Of a stretch of DNA of 13,170 nt, positions 1,828 through 12,926 are shown piece by piece. The position numbers and the translations under genes are program-made. The stretch's first letter is position 1, and each line of letters starts with the position of its first letter. Source of the stretch: Methanosarcinales archaeon (GTDB lineage Archaea; Halobacteriota; Methanosarcinia; Methanosarcinales; Methanogasteraceae); contig JAUWCK010000012.1 of assembly GCA_030609345.1 (NCBI GenBank), forward strand, positions 1 through 13,170, given 5' to 3'. The notes under the pieces are model-generated. The model had not been told where the DNA came from, ran no database searches, and saw only the letters and a program-made list of their open reading frames with translations.

Positions 1828-1856
1828 CATCGATTGAGATCGTGATATCTACGCTG
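1828..1856 (+). promoter_or_regulatory. Conserved upstream element of the decayed cytochrome gene
   Basis: CATCGATTGAGATCGTGA at 1828-1845 is identical to 8053-8070, upstream of the intact cytochrome gene, and the match resumes with TCTACGCTG at 1848-1856 (8072-8080). It lies 24 bases before the dead start codon at 1880. The core contains a small inverted repeat CGAT-TGAG-ATCG. Either the element is a retained regulatory site, or it was simply copied with the duplicated gene. Confidence 0.45.
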
Positions 1857-1879
1857 AACAATCAAGGGGAGGAACATAT

Positions 1880-2050
1880 ATGAAGAGTACGAAGGCAACT
1901 CTCTCACACATCGACTGTATCAGAAGAGTGTGGGAAACTGTTGTTCTGCTTTCCTATCTGTCGTGCCACCAGCCAGGCTGGCGAGGGTTTCGCAACCCCA
2001 ATCCACAACACGTGGATGGGTCGACAAATGTCATAGGAAAGGAGGTTTGA
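1880..2050 (+). pseudogene. Decayed 5' end of an octahaem cytochrome gene, paralogue of the gene at 8108
   Basis: A ribosome binding site GGGGAGG at 1866-1872 precedes an ATG at 1880. The first codons MKSTKATLSHIDCIRRVWET match MKNTKTSPRIDYVRRVSE of the gene at 8108. The signal-peptide core then runs straight into YLSCH, apparently a haem-1 CxxCH whose first cysteine is lost (TAT for TGT or a deletion junction). The next stretch matches the module DNA around the CACAACACGTGGATGGGT block, but one base out of frame. A 4-base loss then restores the frame for TNVIGKE before a TGA at 2048-2050. At most 56 residues could be made, with no complete haem site. Weak similarity may continue to about 2130. 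Confidence 0.8.
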
Positions 2051-2369: not shown

Positions 2370-5300
2370 ATGAATAATAGAACAACAATTACGATCGCAC
2401 TGCTGGCGGTTGTAATGACACTGGGAACGGCAAACGCGGTAAATGTTGCTGCTGTATGCGACAGTGATGAAAACAACAGCGTTAGTCCTTGTGAATCATG
2501 TTCGAGGTACCAGGCAAATGATACTCTCTCTGAAGAATGTGCAAACGACATGTATGCAGAGAACGGCTCAGGGGGCAACATCACAAACCTGACCGGCAGC
2601 GTGTGTGTTGATGAAGTTCCGATAGTGAATATAACCTCACCTGTCGGAATGAACGAGAGCACGGTGGACCGTTCAGTAACCAACGACAACACCACGGTAG
2701 CAACCGCTGTTATCAGGGATGGTGCCGTGGTCAATGGGACCGCGTCATCGGCATCGCCTGCATCTGAAGGGATGCACATCAGCAGCAATGCGGAAATCGC
2801 ACACAGCGCAATACACGAATACTCGGGTGCAGCAAACTGCCGGGTCTGCCACAGGGATCCCGAAAAGGGTTTCGTGACCTCGATCCACAACACGTGGCAA
2901 GGTATAGCGACAAATATCACAGGAAAGGGGGGCAATATGACAGGCAAACGCGTGGGTGTAAACGAGTTCTGCGGTGCCATAACATCGAATGAAGCCATGT
3001 GCGGTAAATGCCACGCGGGATTTGGCTTGCCTGAGGGTAATATCTCAGTCGATAAGATCGACTGCCTGATCTGCCACGCACCGAACTATAAGAAGACCGC
3101 GACAGGACCGGATCCCTCAATCACTATATCGGAAGTCACTCCGGGTATCAGATTGCCCACGCGTGAATATTGTCTGCGCTGCCATGCGACGGCAGGCGGT
3201 GGAGACAATAGAAAACGGGGCGATCTCGAACTTGCGATGGGCGCATCCAGTGTCTCAAAGGACCTCGACGTTCACATGAGCGCGAACATGACGTGCCAGA
3301 ACTGCCACATATTCGACGATGAGCACCACGTATCCGGAAGAGGTATGGATCTGCGGGTCGATGACACCGACACCATCGTCTCATGCGAACAATGCCACCA
3401 AGGTGAGATACATGATGGCTCGATGTACAACCAGCATACAGACCGAATCGCCTGCACAGCCTGCCACATCACATCGTATGGCAAGGTGGAGCCCGCCGAG
3501 GTCGCTCGTAACTGGGAGCTTCCGTTTTTGCCAGGCATGCTCACAAAGGAAAGCAATGCCACACCGATCCACGTCTGGTGGAACAGGACGTCTGAGATCA
3601 TGGACCTCGCAGACCCGGTTGTGCTTGACGATGGGGTTGTGGTGATGGCGAAGCCTGGTGGCGATATCAACGATTCCGAATCCAAGATATACGCGGCAAG
3701 ACTGCACCTGGGTAGATCGCCATGGAATGGCACATACATGCTGCCGTTCAACGTTCCGACTGCCAAGGCAACTAACAACATGACCACGGCAATCTTTAAC
3801 GCGACAGGCGAGATGTATAACCCGGTCCAGTATGTGAATGCCACGCGGTACATGGGACTCTTCCACGGAGTATCGCCGAAGGAGGACGCGTTGACGTGCA
3901 ACGACTGCCACAAAGATCACAAACTCGACTATGAGGCGCTCGGATACAACGTCAAGAAGGACGCATCAGGAAACCTGACCAGTGCAACAAAGCCTGGTAG
4001 TACTCTGAATCTTCTTGATTTCGGAGAAGGTGGGCACAAACTCCTCATCGATGAATACAATGGTTCTAAAACCTGTCTGGCATGCCACGTTGAACATGGC
4101 GATGATTTCGTGACCTCGATTCACAACACGTGGATGGGTACCGAGACCGGTAAACTCGTGGGTGTGAACGATTTCTGCGGCGCCGTAACATCGAATGAAG
4201 CTATGTGCGGCAAATGCCACGCGGGATATGGCTTACCTGATGACCTTTCGGTCGGGAAGATCGACTGCTTGATCTGCCACGCACCGAATTATAATAAGAC
4301 CGCGACAGGACCAGGTCCGTCGATTAATGCAACTGCAGCAGCCCAAGGCGTCGAATTGCCCACGCGTGAGTACTGTCTGCGCTGCCATGCGATGGCAGGC
4401 GGTGGAGACAATAGAAAACGGGGCGATCTCGAACTTGCGATGAGTGTATCTAATGTCTCGAGGGATCTCGATGTCCACATGAGCGCGAACATGACGTGCC
4501 AGGACTGCCATACATTCGAGGATCACCACGTATCCGGAAGAGGTATGGATTTGCGGGTCGATGACACCGACACCATCGTCTCATGCGAAGGATGTCACAA
4601 CGTCAGTGAGCCGCCGCATCCGGAGGGCTCGATGTACAATCAGCATACAGGCCGAATCTCCTGCACAGCCTGCCACATCACATCGTATGGCAAGGTGACG
4701 CCCGCCGAGGTCGCTCGTAACTGGGTGCCTCCATATTCGTCGGACATGCTCACAAAGGAAAGTAATGCCACACCGATCCATGTCTGGTGGAACCGAACGT
4801 CTGAGATCATGGACCTCGCAGACCGGGCTGTATTTGATTCCGATGGGAATGTGGTGATGGCGAAGCCTGGTGGCGATATCAACGATTCCGAATCCAAGAT
4901 ATACGCGGCAAGACTGCACCTGGGTAGACAGCCATGGGATGGTACATACATGCTGCCGTTCAACGTTCCGACTGCCAAGGCAACTAACAACATGACCGAG
5001 GCAATCTTTAACGCGACAGGCGTGACATACAACCCGGTCCAGTACATTAACACCACACGGTATATGGGACTCTTCCACGGAGTATCGCCGAAGGAGGACG
5101 CGTTGACGTGCGACGATTGCCACAAAGATCACAAACTCGACTATGAGGCGCTCGGATACAACGTCAAGAAGGACGCATCAGGAAACCTGACCAGTGCAAC
5201 AAAGCCTGGCAGTACCTTGAATCTTCTTGACTTTGGCGGAGGAGGACATGCCATCTTCATCGATGAATACAATGGTTCTGAAACCTGTCTGGCGTGTCAC

Positions 5301-7172
5301 GAGGAACAGGGCGAGAATTTCTCGACCTCGATTCACAACACGTGGATGGGTATAGCGACAAACATCACAGGAAAGGAGGGCAATACGACGGGCAAACGCG
5401 TGGGTGTAAACGAGTTCTGCGGCGCCGTAACATCGAATGAAGCTATGTGCGGCAAATGCCACGCGGGATATGGCTTACCTGAGGGCGATATCTCGGTCGG
5501 GAAGATCGACTGCTTGATCTGCCACGCACCGAATTACAACAAGACCGCGACAGGACCAGGTCCGTTGGTTAATGCAACTGCAGCAGCCCAAGGCGTCGAA
5601 TTGCCCACGCGTGAGTACTGTCTGCGCTGCCATGCGATGGCAGGCGGTGACAACAATAGAAAACGGGGCGATCTCGAACTTGCGATGGGCGCAGCCGATG
5701 TCTCAGAGGATCTTGATGTTCACATGAGCGCGGACATGACGTGCCAGGACTGCCACACATTCGAGGATCACCACGTATCCGGAAGAGGTATGGATCTGCG
5801 GGTCGACGATACGACGACTGTGGTTAGCTGCGACGATGCGGAATGCCACAGCAGTGGGCCGCATCCGGAGGGCTCGTTATACAACCTGCACACGGACAAC
5901 CTCTCCTGCACGGCATGCCACATCACGTCGTATGGCAAGGTGGAGCCCGTCGAGGTCGCTCGTAACTGGGAGCTTACGTTTTCGTCGGGCATGCTCACAA
6001 AGGAAAGCAAGCCTGCACCGATTCATGTCTGGTGGAACAGGACGTCTGAGATCATGGATCTTGCAGACCGGGCTGTATTTGATTCAGATGGGAATGTGGT
6101 GATGGCGAAGCCTGGTGGCGATATCAACGATTCCGAATCCAAGATATACGCGGCAAGACTGCATCGAGGCAGATCGCCATGGAATGGTACATACATGCTG
6201 CCGTTCAACGTTCTGACTGCCAAGGCAACTAAAAACATGACCGAGGCAATCTTTAACGCGACAGGCGAGATATACGACCCTGTCCAGTACGTTAACGCCA
6301 CGCGGTACATGGGACTCTTCCACGGAGTATCGCCGAAGGAGGACGCGTTGACGTGCGTTGACTGCCACAAAGATCACAAACTCAACTACACGGCGCTCGG
6401 CTACAACGTCAAGACGGATGCATCCGGAAACCTGATCAGTGCAACGAAGCCCGGCATTGCCTGGAATCTTGCCACTCTTGCATCAGGGAGCGGTGAAGAG
6501 GCAGAGGTAGCGATAAGAGGTCTTCCAACCGCTGTGTCTGAAACTGAGATCTTCACCGTGACGATCAACACATCCGATTATGGTGCATCTGCGCAGGTGA
6601 ACGAAACGCTGCCATCCGGCTTCGAGTATATAAGTTCATCGCTCGATAGTTCACAGGTGACCAGTATGGGCGGTAACGTTGTCAGATTCAATCTGACCGG
6701 TGAAACGAGTTTCACGTACATAGTAAACGCATCCGGCACACCTGGAATATACGACTTCAGCGGAACCATTACTAACGCATCTGATGTGGTGACTGACATT
6801 GGCGGCGATAGTAGTATCGTGGTCGGTGCAGCACCAATCGCCGAGATCAACGATTGGACCCTGCATTCGACAGGCACTCGTGGCACAATCATCACCAGCG
6901 CAACCGTGAACATCAAGAACACGGGCACTGAAACCACATGGTTCACGGTCTCGATATCGGGTATGCAGACCACAACAGGCTGCCCAATCGGAGGTGTTGG
7001 AATGGTTCAATTGAATGCTGGCGATTCCATTGATGCGTCGGTCATGATTGTAGTACCAGGTTCTTCGGATACCGGGGATTACACACTGATCCCAGCGGTT
7101 TACAAACAGGAGGACTACCTTGCAGGAGATTCGCAAGCAATCGGTTCAGGAAAATCGGTAACGATTTCCTGA
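2370..7172 (+). CDS. 24-haem extracellular cytochrome: three fused octahaem (OTR-like) modules
   Basis: ATG at 2370 is preferred over the TTG at 2364 because AAGGAGA lies nine bases upstream; the product has 1600 residues. Seen: a signal peptide (1-25); a linker (about 26-130) with five non-haem cysteines and nine N-x-S/T sequons; three octahaem modules whose first haem cysteines are at 157, 569 and 973; and a haem-free C-terminus (about 1372-1600) of two Ig-like or DUF11-like domains. Module 1 haem cysteines are at 157, 211, 232, 268, 309, 339, 362 and 510. There are 23 CxxCH and one CX4CH (CDDAECH at 1154). Order and flanking motifs (NEFCGA-SNEAMCGKCH, GGGDNRKRGDLELAM, HHVSGRG, CTACHITSYGKV) follow the octahaem tetrathionate reductase family. 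It has no membrane anchor. The role, extracellular electron relay or multi-site reductase, is inferred. Confidence 0.9.
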   Translation: MNNRTTITIALLAVVMTLGTANAVNVAAVCDSDENNSVSPCESCSRYQANDTLSEECANDMYAENGSGGNITNLTGSVCVDEVPIVNITSPVGMNESTVDRSVTNDNTTVATAVIRDGAVVNGTASSASPASEGMHISSNAEIAHSAIHEYSGAANCRVCHRDPEKGFVTSIHNTWQGIATNITGKGGNMTGKRVGVNEFCGAITSNEAMCGKCHAGFGLPEGNISVDKIDCLICHAPNYKKTATGPDPSITISEVTPGIRLPTREYCLRCHATAGGGDNRKRGDLELAMGASSVSKDLDVHMSANMTCQNCHIFDDEHHVSGRGMDLRVDDTDTIVSCEQCHQGEIHDGSMYNQHTDRIACTACHITSYGKVEPAEVARNWELPFLPGMLTKESNATPIHVWWNRTSEIMDLADPVVLDDGVVVMAKPGGDINDSESKIYAARLHLGRSPWNGTYMLPFNVPTAKATNNMTTAIFNATGEMYNPVQYVNATRYMGLFHGVSPKEDALTCNDCHKDHKLDYEALGYNVKKDASGNLTSATKPGSTLNLLDFGEGGHKLLIDEYNGSKTCLACHVEHGDDFVTSIHNTWMGTETGKLVGVNDFCGAVTSNEAMCGKCHAGYGLPDDLSVGKIDCLICHAPNYNKTATGPGPSINATAAAQGVELPTREYCLRCHAMAGGGDNRKRGDLELAMSVSNVSRDLDVHMSANMTCQDCHTFEDHHVSGRGMDLRVDDTDTIVSCEGCHNVSEPPHPEGSMYNQHTGRISCTACHITSYGKVTPAEVARNWVPPYSSDMLTKESNATPIHVWWNRTSEIMDLADRAVFDSDGNVVMAKPGGDINDSESKIYAARLHLGRQPWDGTYMLPFNVPTAKATNNMTEAIFNATGVTYNPVQYINTTRYMGLFHGVSPKEDALTCDDCHKDHKLDYEALGYNVKKDASGNLTSATKPGSTLNLLDFGGGGHAIFIDEYNGSETCLACHEEQGENFSTSIHNTWMGIATNITGKEGNTTGKRVGVNEFCGAVTSNEAMCGKCHAGYGLPEGDISVGKIDCLICHAPNYNKTATGPGPLVNATAAAQGVELPTREYCLRCHAMAGGDNNRKRGDLELAMGAADVSEDLDVHMSADMTCQDCHTFEDHHVSGRGMDLRVDDTTTVVSCDDAECHSSGPHPEGSLYNLHTDNLSCTACHITSYGKVEPVEVARNWELTFSSGMLTKESKPAPIHVWWNRTSEIMDLADRAVFDSDGNVVMAKPGGDINDSESKIYAARLHRGRSPWNGTYMLPFNVLTAKATKNMTEAIFNATGEIYDPVQYVNATRYMGLFHGVSPKEDALTCVDCHKDHKLNYTALGYNVKTDASGNLISATKPGIAWNLATLASGSGEEAEVAIRGLPTAVSETEIFTVTINTSDYGASAQVNETLPSGFEYISSSLDSSQVTSMGGNVVRFNLTGETSFTYIVNASGTPGIYDFSGTITNASDVVTDIGGDSSIVVGAAPIAEINDWTLHSTGTRGTIITSATVNIKNTGTETTWFTVSISGMQTTTGCPIGGVGMVQLNAGDSIDASVMIVVPGSSDTGDYTLIPAVYKQEDYLAGDSQAIGSGKSVTIS
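2811..6478 (+). repeat. Three in-frame tandem repeats of about 1.2 kb (octahaem modules)
   Basis: Repeat units begin at the DEYNG-type codons at 2811, 4047 and 5259, giving spacings of 1236 and 1212 bases, and the third ends near 6478. Nucleotide identity is patchy but locally complete: 3639-3716 and 4851-4928 are identical over 78 bases, and 6096-6163 matches the first 68 of them. A fourth, more diverged copy is the 5' module of the next cytochrome gene (about 8264-9526). Patches of identity next to diverged stretches suggest ongoing recombination between modules. Confidence 0.9.
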
Positions 7173-7196: not shown

Positions 7197-7874
7197 ATGA
7201 ACCGAATACACAAACTTGCGATTTCCGTACTGTTGCTGATGATGTGCGCAGCACTACATGGTGCAAGCGCACAATCGACAGCGATCAAAGCAGAGGATGG
7301 AGGAGGTCTTCCGGATAGTATCTATGTTGACGAGACCTTTACGGTGCTAATAACCGAAGACGGTAGTCCTGTTGGTGCTGATACCAACGTGATATTCACG
7401 CTTCCACAGGTTGGTGGCACTCATATCAATGGTCAGACTGATGACAACGGCAAAGCACGATACAAGCCTCGGATAACAGGAACTCTTGGAATCAAGGTGC
7501 TGGATGGTCTCGTTACAGTGGCAGAAGCGACTGTAGATGTGACAGATACCGCCCCAACGCCCACACCAACGCCCACACCAACGTACCGTTCCAGTGGCGG
7601 TGGCGGCGGCTACTCTTTGCCAGCAACCCCAACCGTGATAGCGACTGCTGCACCAACAGCACCGCTGGGAGCAACATCCGGAGTCACACCAGTGGTGACC
7701 CCGGTCAAAGTGGTCGATACCCCGGGCGATGTCGATGTGAGAACTCCAGCCTCCACGCTCAAACCGCCCAAACCGCTCAAACCGGCCAAAAAAAGCGTCC
7801 CTGGATTCACATCGGTCTTCGCAATCGCGGGACTGCTTGCGGCTCTGTATCTGGTGCTGTGGCGAAGAGAGTAG
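7197..7874 (+). CDS. PGF-CTERM surface protein with Ig-like domain
   Basis: ATG at 7197 follows a strong TAGGAGG (7185-7191) and lies 24 bases after the 24-haem gene, so the two are probably cotranscribed. The 225-residue product has a signal peptide ending near ASA (residues 1-25) and one Ig-like beta domain (about 30-115, with a GQTDDNGKARYKP motif seen in Big_1-type folds). A low-complexity stalk follows (TPTPTPTPTY, then SSGGGGGY, then KPPKPLKPAKK). The C-terminus has PGF at 202-204, a hydrophobic stretch and final RRE, which matches the PGF-CTERM signal cleaved by archaeosortase A and replaced by a lipid anchor. There are no haem motifs. Because the 24-haem cytochrome upstream lacks an anchor, this protein may hold it at the cell surface; that is inference from context. 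The Ig call is moderate, the sorting signal strong. Confidence 0.85.
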   Translation: MNRIHKLAISVLLLMMCAALHGASAQSTAIKAEDGGGLPDSIYVDETFTVLITEDGSPVGADTNVIFTLPQVGGTHINGQTDDNGKARYKPRITGTLGIKVLDGLVTVAEATVDVTDTAPTPTPTPTPTYRSSGGGGGYSLPATPTVIATAAPTAPLGATSGVTPVVTPVKVVDTPGDVDVRTPASTLKPPKPLKPAKKSVPGFTSVFAIAGLLAALYLVLWRRE

Positions 7875-8052: not shown

Positions 8053-8099
8053 CATCGATTGAGATCGTGAGGTCTACGCTGGGATAATCAAAAAGAGGT
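8053..8099 (+). promoter_or_regulatory. Conserved upstream element and ribosome binding site of the 18-haem gene
   Basis: CATCGATTGAGATCGTGA at 8053-8070 is shared exactly with 1828-1845 upstream of the cytochrome pseudogene, as is TCTACGCTG at 8072-8080. GAGGT at 8095-8099 is eight bases from the ATG at 8108. No clear TATA box is visible; AT-rich candidates lie at about 7998-8040, including the inverted repeat GATAC-GTATC at 7997-8015. Confidence 0.45.
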
Positions 8100-8107
8100 A
8101 TATGTGG

Positions 8108-11100
8108 ATGAAGAATACGAAGACGAGCCCCCGCATCGACTACGTTAGAAGAGTGTCGGAGGCGGCTGTTATTCTGCTTTTTTGCCTGTTGATCGCATCA
8201 ACAGCATCGGCATCGCCTGCATCTGAAGGGGTGCACGCCAGCGGGACATTCTCACACCGCTTCATCCATGAATACAATGGTGCTGAAAACTGTCTGGTGT
8301 GCCACAAGCAGGTTAGCAATGATCTCGCGACCTCGATTCACAACACGTGGATGGGTACGGCAACAAACGTCGTGGGAAAGGAAGGTGACGAGACCGGCAA
8401 ACTCGTGGGTGTAAACGATTTCTACGGTGCCGTAACATCGAATGAAGCTCTCTGCGGCGAGTGCCACGTAGGATTTGGCTTGCCTGATCACGATCTCTCG
8501 GTCGGGAAGATCGACTGCCTGATCTGCCATGCACCGAACTATAAGAAGACCGCGACAGGACCGGACCCCTCGATCGATGTACTGGCAGCTGTTCAAAGCA
8601 TGGTCAAATCGCCAACGCGTGAGATGTGTCTGCGCTGCCATGCGACGGCAGGCGGTGGAGACAATAACAAGCGGGGCGATCTCGAACTTGCGATGGGCGC
8701 ATCCAGTGTCTCAAAGGATCTCGACGTTCATATAAACGCGGACATGAAGTGCCAGAGATGCCACACATTCGAGGATCACCACGTATCCGGAAGAGGTATG
8801 GATCTGCGTGTTGACGATACGACGACTGTGGTTAGCTGCGATGATGTGAGATGTCACGGATCAGAGCCGCATCAGGGGGGCTCGATGCATTCGAATATGT
8901 ATAACCAGCACACGGACAGACTCTACTGCACAGCCTGCCACATCACATCGTATGGCAAGGTGACATCCGCTGAGGTCTCTCGTGACTGGGAGGATCGAAC
9001 GCTCGGCGCAGATGGCATGTACCATGAGGCGATCGTGCGAGAGAGCAATCCCGCACCGATCCATGTCTGGTGGAACCGAACGTCTGAGATCATGGATCTC
9101 ACAGACCCGGCTGTGCTTGATGATGGGGTTGTGGTGATGGCGAAGCCTGTTGGCGATATCAACGATTCCGAATCCAGGATATACGCGGCAAGACTGCATC
9201 GAGGTAGATCGCCATGGAATGGCACCCACATGCTGCCGTTCAATATTACGACCGTCAGGACGACCGATGACATGGCCCAGGCGCTATTTGACGCGACAGG
9301 CGAGGTGTATGACCCGGTCAAGTACATTGACGCCAAGCGGTACATGGGACTCTTCCACGGAGTGTCGCCGAAGGAGGACGCGTTGACGTGTAGCGACTGC
9401 CACGATGATCATAAACTCGACTACGAGGCGCTCGGCTACGACATCAAGAAGGATGCATCCGGAGACCTGATCAGTGCAACAAAGCCCGGCGGTACTGTGA
9501 ATCTCGCAACTCTCGGCGGCAAGGACTGTGTCAGTTGCCACAGAATTGGCGGAATTCTACCTGAAAAATTCCAAATTGACGTGCAGGCTATGAACATGTC
9601 CGACGCCATCCACTATGCCCTGAACAGAGAAGGTAGAGGTGCAGAAGGCGAACTGGATCCAAATAACGTACGCTGCTGGGCATGTCACGGTGATGGTGAC
9701 GGATCAGAAGCAGCCCAACCATCAGGTCATCCTGAGAACTACAAGAATCCCAAGAACTGCAGTGGAGGGGATTGTCACAGCATCAACCAATCCATCTTCA
9801 ACGAACCGATGGTCTACGAACACTTCATGTACGCAGACGTTCTCGATAACGAAGGCAACGTTCTCCCAACAGCGAATATTAGCACAGGGGTTGGTTGCGA
9901 TAGGTGCCACATAAACAGCGTCATGGAAACTCGGGATACCATCATTCCATCGGACATCGCACTGGTATCTCATTACGGCTCGACTTATGAACTGATGGCA
10001 TATCCGGATTTCACCATGACCGATTGCGTCTACTGCCACGAGGGGCATTACAAAGAGGATTGGGGCGAAGGGGTCTCAGGAGATTGGGGTGACGATATCT
10101 CAGAGGAGTGGGGCGATGCAATCGATCCGATGGATCAGGAGGCAGATATGATCGAGGATGAGGGTGATGAGTATAGTAAGACCATGTTTGCAGGTGATCT
10201 GTGGGAACTCAGGAACGGCTACATACTCAAGGTCACTGCCGTCGATCTGAATGGAGACAATGCACATATCCAGCTGAGCAGGGATGGAGAACTGCTTGAG
10301 GAGGAAGTAGCACATATAGATTGTCCTTATGAATATGAGAGAGAAATTACGGATGATGATGGCAAAACGTTCAACCAGACCGACGTTCTTTTGAATCTGA
10401 CCGGCATCATGCGATCTTCGGGCGGCGTGGTTGCGATATTTGAGGGGCAGACGACCAAACGAATTCACAGAGAGACCACTAATTCTGCGTGCTATGCCTG
10501 CCATATGGAAGGATATGGCAAGAACAGTCGATATACTCTTGTAGACAGACTCGGTGATAAGACCTATTATACAACGATGCTTGTCGACTTTGACTATTAT
10601 GGCGATAACACGTCAAAGACACTTGCGACTGGCGAAGAATGGGATCTTGGGGATGGATTCACTCTTACGGCAAAACAGATCGATATAGATGGAGATCTTG
10701 CCAGAATCGAACTTGCAAGAGATGGCGTTGCTGTCGAAAACGACATAGATGTAGTGCACACCGGGGAGATGTTCTACTACGAAGATGATTTCCATGCAGT
10801 CAACGTCTATTATGATGACGAGTTCCGTGCAATCAACGATTCGCATGCATTTCACGATCTGCGCATATTCAGGGCGAACCTATCCAGTGTGTTCAGATCA
10901 GAAGACACTGATCTGATGGTGCTCAGGGATGTACGGCTGATATCGCCTGATATATCCGCGGTGGATGCCGAAGATATCGAAGGCGACAACGGTTTCAGGT
11001 TGGATGGCTACAATCTCAGCTGGATCAGAGTTGGGGATGATTTCGGAGGGGGGAAACCATTCACGCTCCATACGGCTCCGCTACACAATGGAAGAGCTAC

Positions 11101-11914
11101 AAACTTTGCTGACTGCGTCCACTGCCACGATCTCGACAGTGGTATGGATATCAAACGCGTGGATGCGGTCGCATCCCAACTCGGAGCACACGCGGGGCTC
11201 AATGAAGAGGTATCCAGCGAGACTGTACTGGCAGATCCAATCGATAAGGCATGCTGGGCATGTCATGGAATCGGAACAGAACCAGATGTCCACCCGGATA
11301 AGAAGCCGAAGGAATGCGTGGACTGTCATGTGAACGAGATACTCTATGGTGCAACAGACCTGAGCAATGAGGCACACGGACAGGCTGAAGACTGTAATCG
11401 GTGCCATGCAGCAGATTATCCGGGAACGCATGTCATCACTGTTCTCAAACCAAACACGCCCGGCATCACAGAGATAAAGGTGATGCCGGAAGTTGCCATG
11501 TCCGGGCAGCTGGTGAATGTGAGTGCCACCGCCGTTGCGGGCTGGAACATGTTGGTCGAGGCGATGGAATATTTCATCGGTGAGGCGGGTCGATCCGGAA
11601 CAGGTACGGCAGTCGTGCCGATCGATTGTGTATTCGACGAGCAGACAGAAGAGTTTGAATTTACAATCAACATCACAGGACTTGAGCCGGGTGACCACGC
11701 AGTATATGTCCATGCAATGGAACGTGGCAAATGGGGTCCGATGAACAGAGCTGCATTCGCAATCGAGTTTTCGGAACCGGAGTCCGCGGAACCTGCGATG
11801 GCAGTTAAGCCAGAGCGGCACCTCGGTTTGCCAGCGATAAACGCTGCAACAGTCATCATCATTGGTATCGGAGCATGGTTGCTGCTTACACTCCGGAGAA
11901 AGAGGGGTCTTTGA
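8108..11914 (+). CDS. 18-haem membrane-anchored cytochrome with octahaem module and S-layer domains
   Basis: ATG at 8108 is preferred over 8102: GAGGT at 8095-8099 is then eight bases away, and it aligns with the start of the upstream pseudogene. The product has 1268 residues. Seen: a signal peptide (to about ASTASA); an octahaem OTR-like module (first haem cysteine 62, last 428) with CX4CH at 244 (CDDVRCH); further haems at 474, 523, 551 (CX4CH, CSGGDCH), 597 and 640; an acidic Trp-repeat linker (650-690); two S-layer-like segments (about 693-790 and 838-948, WDLGDGFTLTAKQIDIDGD) flanking a haem at 795; haems at 1003, 1049, 1070 and 1096; an Ig-like domain (about 1118-1222); and a transmembrane helix (1244-1262) ending RRKRGL. 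The S-layer segments resemble the Methanosarcina S-layer family (PF07752). Such fusions are known in ANME archaea and are proposed to carry electrons through the S-layer. Confidence 0.9.
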   Translation: MKNTKTSPRIDYVRRVSEAAVILLFCLLIASTASASPASEGVHASGTFSHRFIHEYNGAENCLVCHKQVSNDLATSIHNTWMGTATNVVGKEGDETGKLVGVNDFYGAVTSNEALCGECHVGFGLPDHDLSVGKIDCLICHAPNYKKTATGPDPSIDVLAAVQSMVKSPTREMCLRCHATAGGGDNNKRGDLELAMGASSVSKDLDVHINADMKCQRCHTFEDHHVSGRGMDLRVDDTTTVVSCDDVRCHGSEPHQGGSMHSNMYNQHTDRLYCTACHITSYGKVTSAEVSRDWEDRTLGADGMYHEAIVRESNPAPIHVWWNRTSEIMDLTDPAVLDDGVVVMAKPVGDINDSESRIYAARLHRGRSPWNGTHMLPFNITTVRTTDDMAQALFDATGEVYDPVKYIDAKRYMGLFHGVSPKEDALTCSDCHDDHKLDYEALGYDIKKDASGDLISATKPGGTVNLATLGGKDCVSCHRIGGILPEKFQIDVQAMNMSDAIHYALNREGRGAEGELDPNNVRCWACHGDGDGSEAAQPSGHPENYKNPKNCSGGDCHSINQSIFNEPMVYEHFMYADVLDNEGNVLPTANISTGVGCDRCHINSVMETRDTIIPSDIALVSHYGSTYELMAYPDFTMTDCVYCHEGHYKEDWGEGVSGDWGDDISEEWGDAIDPMDQEADMIEDEGDEYSKTMFAGDLWELRNGYILKVTAVDLNGDNAHIQLSRDGELLEEEVAHIDCPYEYEREITDDDGKTFNQTDVLLNLTGIMRSSGGVVAIFEGQTTKRIHRETTNSACYACHMEGYGKNSRYTLVDRLGDKTYYTTMLVDFDYYGDNTSKTLATGEEWDLGDGFTLTAKQIDIDGDLARIELARDGVAVENDIDVVHTGEMFYYEDDFHAVNVYYDDEFRAINDSHAFHDLRIFRANLSSVFRSEDTDLMVLRDVRLISPDISAVDAEDIEGDNGFRLDGYNLSWIRVGDDFGGGKPFTLHTAPLHNGRATNFADCVHCHDLDSGMDIKRVDAVASQLGAHAGLNEEVSSETVLADPIDKACWACHGIGTEPDVHPDKKPKECVDCHVNEILYGATDLSNEAHGQAEDCNRCHAADYPGTHVITVLKPNTPGITEIKVMPEVAMSGQLVNVSATAVAGWNMLVEAMEYFIGEAGRSGTGTAVVPIDCVFDEQTEEFEFTINITGLEPGDHAVYVHAMERGKWGPMNRAAFAIEFSEPESAEPAMAVKPERHLGLPAINAATVIIIGIGAWLLLTLRRKRGL
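10061..10132 (+). repeat. Three tandem 24-base repeats encoding an acidic tryptophan octapeptide
   Basis: Codons for Trp-Gly begin at 10061, 10085 and 10109, exactly 24 bases apart, within the linker between the haem at residue 640 and the first S-layer segment. The consensus is W-G-[E/D]-x-[V/I]-S-x-[D/E]; the third copy is degenerate. A strongly acidic stretch (DQEADMIEDEGDE) follows. Confidence 0.75.
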
Positions 11915-11939: not shown

Positions 11940-12926
11940 ATGATTTCAATGAAGAACGCATTGTTCGGGATCAGTGCCGTGTTGTTGCTTATTCTTGGGT
12001 CCGGGTGTCTGACTTATGTGGAGGAACCCAACGCTTCAACCATCCAAACGACTCCGGACGTTTTGGGAGTGAATGCTTCGGATGTGGGTGGCGGGGAACC
12101 AGTCGGTTCAATGCCGTCGGAATGCAAGGGCAACTGCACCGAGTGCCATGGGCTTGCTCACGGCACACAACTCCAAAATTGCACCGGGTGCCATGATGTA
12201 CATGATCCGAGGGGTAACATCCCAAGCCCACGTCTCGAACAGTTCTGTTCCCAGTGCCACCCACAACAATTCGAAGAGTTCTCAGGTCATCCTGGCGGAC
12301 ATGCTAACCTGAAGTGTGTTTACTGCCACAGTGTCCACCGACATATCGAGGCATGTACCAACTGTCATCCACCACACAGTGCAGAGTCGATGTATGACGA
12401 TTGCCTGAACTGTCATCCTGCACATACACCACAGGAGATCGAATATCCTGCAACGGTATCAGATGAACAGTGTGGTAACTGTCATAAAGGGGTGAGTATT
12501 GCACTTGCGCAGGGTAACACCAGGCATAGCAGCCTGAAATGCACATACTGTCACACAATCCATGAACAGATCCCCGACTGCAAGGATTGTCATGCCCCGC
12601 ACACACAGAATATGACTTATGACGATTGTATCGGATGCCATCCCGCACACAATCCGGTGGACATGAAATTCTCTTCAGACATCCCGCGAGAGGACTGTGC
12701 GGCATGCCACAAGGAGGTCGATTCCGAATTACGCGGAAGCAATACAAAGCACAACAATCTGAATTGTGTTTACTGCCATCCGGAGCACCGGTATCTGCCC
12801 ACATGCGAGTCCTGTCATGGATTACCACATGAGAATGTATATGATGTGCATAAGAATTACCCTGATTGCAGCCAGTGCCACATCGCCCCACATGCGGTGA
12901 ATAATATCGTGTTTACCAGACAGTAA
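11940..12926 (+). CDS. 14-haem lipoprotein-like cytochrome with tetrahaem repeats
   Basis: ATG at 11940 is chosen because GAGGT at 11929-11933 lies six bases upstream; the gene starts 25 bases after the 18-haem gene and is probably cotranscribed. The 328-residue product has a hydrophobic leader (ALFGISAVLLLILGSGC) whose SGC resembles an archaeal lipobox, so it is probably a lipid-anchored exported protein. Fourteen CxxCH motifs follow: two at 66 and 81, then three tetrahaem units beginning at cysteines 103, 178 and 253, exactly 75 residues apart. Each unit has the pattern CxxCH, H-x2-L-x-C-x-YCH-x2-H, C-x2-CH-x-PH, CxxCHPAH. Numerous extra histidines after haem motifs are suitable distal ligands, giving bis-His coordination. 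With one haem per about 23 residues and no catalytic domain, it is most likely an electron carrier between membrane and S-layer cytochromes; partner and direction are inferred. No specific named family is recognised. Confidence 0.88.
   Translation: MISMKNALFGISAVLLLILGSGCLTYVEEPNASTIQTTPDVLGVNASDVGGGEPVGSMPSECKGNCTECHGLAHGTQLQNCTGCHDVHDPRGNIPSPRLEQFCSQCHPQQFEEFSGHPGGHANLKCVYCHSVHRHIEACTNCHPPHSAESMYDDCLNCHPAHTPQEIEYPATVSDEQCGNCHKGVSIALAQGNTRHSSLKCTYCHTIHEQIPDCKDCHAPHTQNMTYDDCIGCHPAHNPVDMKFSSDIPREDCAACHKEVDSELRGSNTKHNNLNCVYCHPEHRYLPTCESCHGLPHENVYDVHKNYPDCSQCHIAPHAVNNIVFTRQ
12246..12915 (+). repeat. Three tandem 225-base repeats (tetrahaem units)
   Basis: Units start at the haem cysteine codons at 12246, 12471 and 12696, each 225 bases apart. 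Protein similarity is clear (YDDCxxCHPAHxP in units one and two), while the DNA has diverged, so this duplication is older than the octahaem-module repeats. Unit three is altered near its end, with VYDVHKNYPDCSQCH replacing the YDDC-type block. Confidence 0.8.

Follow-up and report, generated by a model that had tools for sequence, protein, structure and literature searches.

Large cytochromes of the S-layer, along with small carriers, make up the known candidates for electron export past the S-layer of ANME archaea. S-layer multihaem cytochromes have been proposed as conduits in ANME (PMC9012536), and those of the MHC-A type resemble the protein analysed here in being large, secreted multihaem proteins of these archaea. 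A second point of reference is provided by octahaem tetrathionate reductase (OTR; Shewanella oneidensis SO4144, PDB 1SP3, profile TIGR04315), and by its relative MmcA of Methanosarcina (TIGR04314), an extracellular conduit described as a single module with seven haems that lacks both the second haem motif and its lysine (PMC11024163). Hydroxylamine oxidoreductase (HAO) also brings together 24 haems from three octahaem units, but as a complex rather than as a single polypeptide (PMC7096707).

The protein described here combines 24 predicted haem sites with a single chain. It differs from OTR in having three modules per chain and an added tail, and from MmcA in having eight haems and an equivalent of Lys56 in every module. 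With MHC-A it shares a locus, one member of which is an MHC-A-type cytochrome containing an OTR-like module; the triple-module protein itself, however, gives no match to the S-layer profile PF07752 at E 0.001, and has no C-terminal hydrophobic segment that could form the corresponding helix. Its gene opens with an ATG at position 2370 of the window (the whole 13,170-nucleotide stretch of DNA that was analysed), and reads as 1600 codons with zero internal stops (2370..7172, forward strand). The features of the locus are as follows:

1828..2046, forward strand: decayed remnant of the 5' end of another OTR-type gene (upstream region, signal peptide and start of the haem region)
2370..2819, forward strand: N-terminal part of the triple-module cytochrome, with signal peptide and low-complexity sequence (protein 1–150; N-terminal hydrophobic 19-mers)
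2820..4043, forward strand: octahaem OTR-like module 1 (protein 151–558; eight CxxCH; TIGR04315 216 bits; equivalents of K56, N61, C64, D150 and K153)
4056..5255, forward strand: octahaem OTR-like module 2 (protein 563–962; eight CxxCH; TIGR04315 222 bits; all five pocket positions kept)
5268..6506, forward strand: octahaem OTR-like module 3 (protein 967–1379; seven CxxCH and one CX4CH)
6507..7172, forward strand: C-terminal tail of the triple-module protein (weak DUF11 match, below cut-off, then a domain of ~115 amino acids; no membrane helix)
7197..7874, forward strand: surface-anchored PGF-CTERM protein (PF18204 30.1 bits and TIGR04126 26.6 bits, both above cut-off)
8102..11914, forward strand: S-layer multihaem cytochrome of the ANME MHC-A type (16 CxxCH and two CX4CH; PF07752 93.2 bits; TIGR04315 205 bits, below cut-off)
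11940..12926, forward strand: 14-haem cytochrome (14 CxxCH; by eye, a signal or lipoprotein-like sequence at the N-terminus)

The presence of three OTR-type modules in one secreted chain is a real feature of this gene. Direct counting gives 23 CxxCH motifs and one CX4CH, the latter at protein position 1154 in module 3, and the resulting 24 predicted sites, at which we infer that haem is loaded, fall into three sets of eight. Scored alone, the modules match TIGR04315 with 216.3, 221.8 and 219.6 bits, at E-values (8e-64 to 2e-65) that exclude chance, whilst hydrophobic 19-mers start only at residues 5–12, at the very N-terminus; the original prediction of three complete modules, eight haem sites in each and a secreted product thus holds on each of these points. 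Pfam likewise finds three Cytochrome_cB stretches in the protein, but nothing within residues 1–150 at any E-value up to 1. In an alignment column test one haem motif failed in window module 2, as it did in two of the 16 modules from two-module relatives, which we ascribe to a shift in the alignment since direct counts give eight per module.

Membership of the OTR family, also part of the original prediction, requires a narrower wording. The whole chain scores 626.4 bits against the TIGR04315 cut-off of 375, but passes only as the sum of its three modules, each of which falls short of the cut-off when taken singly; single-module OTR-like proteins of ANME likewise score well under it. As each lies below the cut-off, we place the window modules and the ANME single-module proteins in an archaeal OTR-like subfamily, rather than in TIGR04315 in the strict sense. 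The OTR fold of that family is the one found. A single-sequence search of the PDB (E 0.001) returned one match, OTR itself (1SP3; E 6.5e-49), with a profile search adding six further, weak chains of cytochrome type (E 4e-4 upwards). Because only six rows of the three-module alignment (A1) span most of module 1, structure prediction with AF2 used a 40-row alignment of two modules (A2) instead (pTM 0.51). Most of its first module is covered by seven rows, counting the query, and we therefore trust this model only in its second half. A model of module 2 folded without an alignment was discarded (mean pLDDT 32).

Database relatives show that the triple-module protein does not stand alone but belongs to a series, as proteins with two and with four modules also exist. 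The first protein search, in which scoring was limited to the 7995 candidates with most shared words, yielded 19 proteins: the window protein itself (P0001), eight two-module proteins (P0002–P0009), eight S-layer proteins with one OTR-like module (P0010–P0017), P0018, and P0019, which has one OTR module. The eight two-module proteins are archaeal by similarity and 53–81% identical to the window protein, P0002 and P0003 being near copies of each other; they share its type of module, its junction spacing and its C-terminal tail, and differ in having two modules instead of three. P0018 (880 amino acids) has one full and one partial OTR-like module, with what by eye is a dockerin-like insert inside the full one. 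A wider profile search (7992 candidates scored, 112 matches) added two further two-module proteins, one of them named Verrucomicrobia, and the bacterial four-module protein KQI84_16320 (P0140; 2039 amino acids, 32 CxxCH). The latter is, like the window protein, a covalent concatemer of OTR-like modules, but its four modules are divergent and lack Lys56 and Asn61, and the tail was not found in it; its modules 1–2 and 3–4 appear by eye to be of two different kinds. Proteins with three or more OTR modules account for two of the 179 collected.

Modules of this type also occur singly. In four ANME-2 loci (L002, L004, L005, L006) OTR-like genes come two per locus, 0.4–1.3 kb apart; the intact ones encode eight haems, as do the window modules, but the modules reside in separate genes, and the first gene of L004 is split into two frames. 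Database relatives of this single-module type (P0021–P0049) are mostly 56–67% identical to module 1, among the best 120 of 193 matches from a search whose length limits exclude three-module proteins, and at least three single-module relatives among the matches listed carry PGF-CTERM. A genome survey at the level of the order (185 genomes, 112 with a TIGR04315 match, 19 above cut-off) and of the class (237 genomes, 104 with a match) yielded, among the matches listed, no unbroken frame in which OTR matched strongly twice, a result of little weight because multi-module genes can break at contig ends. Nor, among the matches listed from open-licence PMC literature, did we find OTR modules fused in one chain. 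The earlier claim that this architecture is undescribed therefore stands for three modules within that literature, whereas databases contain the eight two-module proteins and a four-module one; the cytochrome family is known, and the three-module protein is an unusual tandem version of it.

Such a break at contig ends is seen in the Methanosarcinales MAG AUK006, which has the same gene order as the window at 84–92% DNA identity. Its multi-module gene is split, one contig holding the start (L008), whose N-terminus resembles that of the triple-module protein, and another the end (L001); the two pieces most likely represent one gene with at least two modules. This counterpart bears on whether a gene with two modules might have gained its third in error during assembly, which we regard as very improbable. 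That the AUK006 contigs end within the gene marks it as hard to assemble, and a one-module form, P0145, looks like the product of recombination or of a collapse in assembly: its N-terminus is identical to that of P0003 over 130 amino acids, its tail over 214 of 215 positions, and its single module is a hybrid whose beginning mostly resembles module 1 of P0003 and whose end resembles module 2, hinting at a change in copy number through recombination or at such a collapse. The three window copies, however, differ throughout, by 12–16% of their DNA, and the longest exact repeat they share is 92 nt, which makes a false third copy unlikely; moreover, the AUK006 counterpart is 88.7% identical over 1349 nt that begin at the end of module 2 and run on across module 3. 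Pairwise, the window modules are 78–83% identical in amino acid and 84–88% in DNA sequence, with dN/dS values of 0.34–0.41 that are consistent with purifying selection on all three.

Two features unite the multi-module proteins of archaeal type. The spacing from haem 8 of one module to haem 1 of the next is 58–60 residues at 10/10 junctions in P0001–P0009 (the incomplete P0020, with 14 haems, being left out of the count), compared with 48–50 residues at 5/5 junctions in the bacterial-type proteins P0140–P0142. Spacing this uniform is as expected of a constrained junction, at which we infer contact between haems of successive modules, but it may instead reflect inheritance, and two of the nine proteins, P0002 and P0003, scarcely differ from each other. 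The second feature is the C-terminal domain of ~115 amino acids, common to the window protein and all eight of its complete two-module relatives. A scan of 238 sequences, some of them duplicates, located it also in P0145, in the AUK006 end piece (three overlapping copies), in a duplicate entry of the window protein, and in eight further proteins of 248–576 amino acids, several of which lie on short contigs and are perhaps truncated; it was not found in P0140 or in the single-module genes of L002 and L004–L006.

The module tree follows no simple scheme. It rejects a single clade of the P0001–P0009 modules with P0020, P0022 and L001 (p-AU 4e-33), as well as a single clade of all first modules of P0001–P0009 (p-AU 1e-49); the three window modules group together with support 44/0, although a positional grouping is also compatible (p 0.30). 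Despite these rejections we do not claim repeated independent fusion, given the tail and junction spacing that P0001–P0009 share; these make it likelier that all of them descend from a single two-module ancestor and that modules were exchanged later on. The triple gene would have grown from an octahaem OTR-like module duplicated in tandem and in frame, with exchange between the copies afterwards.

Remains of a further gene lie upstream. Positions 1828–2046 are 75% identical in DNA to 8053–8180 and 77% to 8290–8386, with a reading broken across frames, and a stretch starting at 1868 recurs in AUK006 upstream of the same gene (L008 from 7495). The region upstream of this decayed gene resembles the one that precedes the S-layer cytochrome gene.

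We next consider the surroundings of the second haem, with positions numbered on a Shewanella OTR (P0096) as ruler. Equivalents of Lys56, Asn61, Cys64 and Lys153 are present in 3/3 window modules and 16/16 modules of the two-module relatives (19/19 in all); Asn61, Cys64, Asp150 and Lys153 we take, from the OTR structure, to have roles in the pocket. In OTR the second haem is the catalytic one and is ligated by lysine (PMC11024163), namely Lys56 (PMC3769277), and such a lysine in each module suggests an alternative in which the protein is a three-site reductase for a sulfur or nitrogen oxyanion or other small acceptor, fusion serving to raise the density of sites and to share electrons between them. 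We consider this unlikely, if a serious contender. In its favour, the OTR-like modules of MHC-A-type S-layer cytochromes keep Lys56 in 10/10 cases but Cys64 in only 3/10 (position 64 being Y in five, C in three, H in one and R in one); and loss of the pocket does occur, since the alignment shows neither Lys56 nor Asn61 in any of the four modules of P0140, nor in the second module of either P0141 or P0142. Against this, the Asp150 equivalent is lost in module 3 of the window protein (2/3 modules keep it) and in nine of the 16 modules of the two-module relatives (7/16 keep it), the neighbouring genes suggest no substrate, and 76/78 more distant modules keep Lys56, Asn61 and Cys64, such that retention may be inheritance and is by itself no proof of use. 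In the S-layer cytochrome of this locus (8102–11914), a tyrosine replaces Cys64 in the OTR-like module.

The reading we favour, at a probability of roughly 0.55, is that of a secreted 24-haem protein that conducts or stores electrons outside the cell, as part of ANME-type electron transfer at the surface, and that grew by tandem duplication and module exchange. It is favoured by the gene neighbours and by the fixed junction spacing. The PGF-CTERM gene, which starts 24 nt downstream of the triple-module gene and has an AUK006 orthologue at 84% DNA identity, the MHC-A-type S-layer gene and the 14-haem cytochrome gene are together suggestive of such a role. The S-layer protein consists of an N-terminal OTR-like module, an S-layer domain and a C-terminal hydrophobic helix (19-mers starting at 1240–1248). 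The MHC-A type is described as having one haem motif in the linker that joins two S-layer subdomains (PMC9012536); here a CxxCH lies at 797, ahead of the better of the S-layer stretches (835–958).

Precedent for a conduit is found in MmcA, an OTR relative that acts as one (PMC11024163), and redox conduction in ANME consortia is reported to be consistent with multihaem cytochromes (PMC12372872). The host would be a methane-cycling, ANME-2-type Methanosarcinales archaeon, to judge from its relatives; the AUK006 genome contains an mcrA fragment. The triple-module protein would take electrons from the S-layer cytochrome encoded nearby, a putative partner, and these would then pass through its three octahaem chains one after another to reach a partner cell or a solid acceptor. 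Also counted in favour is the mass per haem of the window modules, 5.4–5.6 kDa, which falls between the electron-transfer and catalytic classes given in PMC7096707. Speaking against a conduit are the OTR-type pocket residues in every module, which a plain wire does not need. A highly transcribed, small eight-haem cytochrome has been described in ANME-2c E20 (PMC9012536), and is not matched to any gene here.

The conduit is also to be weighed against a role mainly as an electron capacitor or matrix cytochrome, in which 24 haems would store charge within the extracellular matrix and would need no directional chain. A secreted protein without a membrane helix and with 52 N-glycosylation sequons fits such a role, and small multihaem cytochromes are thought to aid conductivity of the extracellular matrix (PMC9012536); the fixed junction spacing, however, suggests modules that are ordered and not loose, and we hold this alternative to be improbable.

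The original prediction had named an extended wire and a three-site reductase as alternatives. Neighbours and spacing now tilt the choice towards the conduit, with the pocket residues leaving room for catalysis, and the two roles are not mutually exclusive. A more speculative proposal, which we put forward very tentatively, would unite them in a single-chain nanowire with built-in catalysis: a continuous 24-haem extracellular chain with a Lys-ligated reactive haem in each segment, which might conduct from a methane-oxidising archaeon and hand electrons over at multiple sites, whether to a partner or to a soluble acceptor containing sulfur or nitrogen, the length of the chain (one, two or three copies) being tuned by recombination between modules.

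The triple-module protein bears on the question of how ANME archaea pass electrons past the S-layer, as it ties an OTR-type module family to chain length through covalent tandem copies, and its gene shares a block with that of an S-layer cytochrome. The protein provides a defined, expressible object with which to decide between wire and enzyme, as well as an example of octahaem modules that have multiplied, and seem to have been exchanged, inside one gene. At the other end of the window, positions 2–937 encode, in a reading frame that is open at its 5' end, a PLD-like domain with a PKD domain and a type I dockerin after it.
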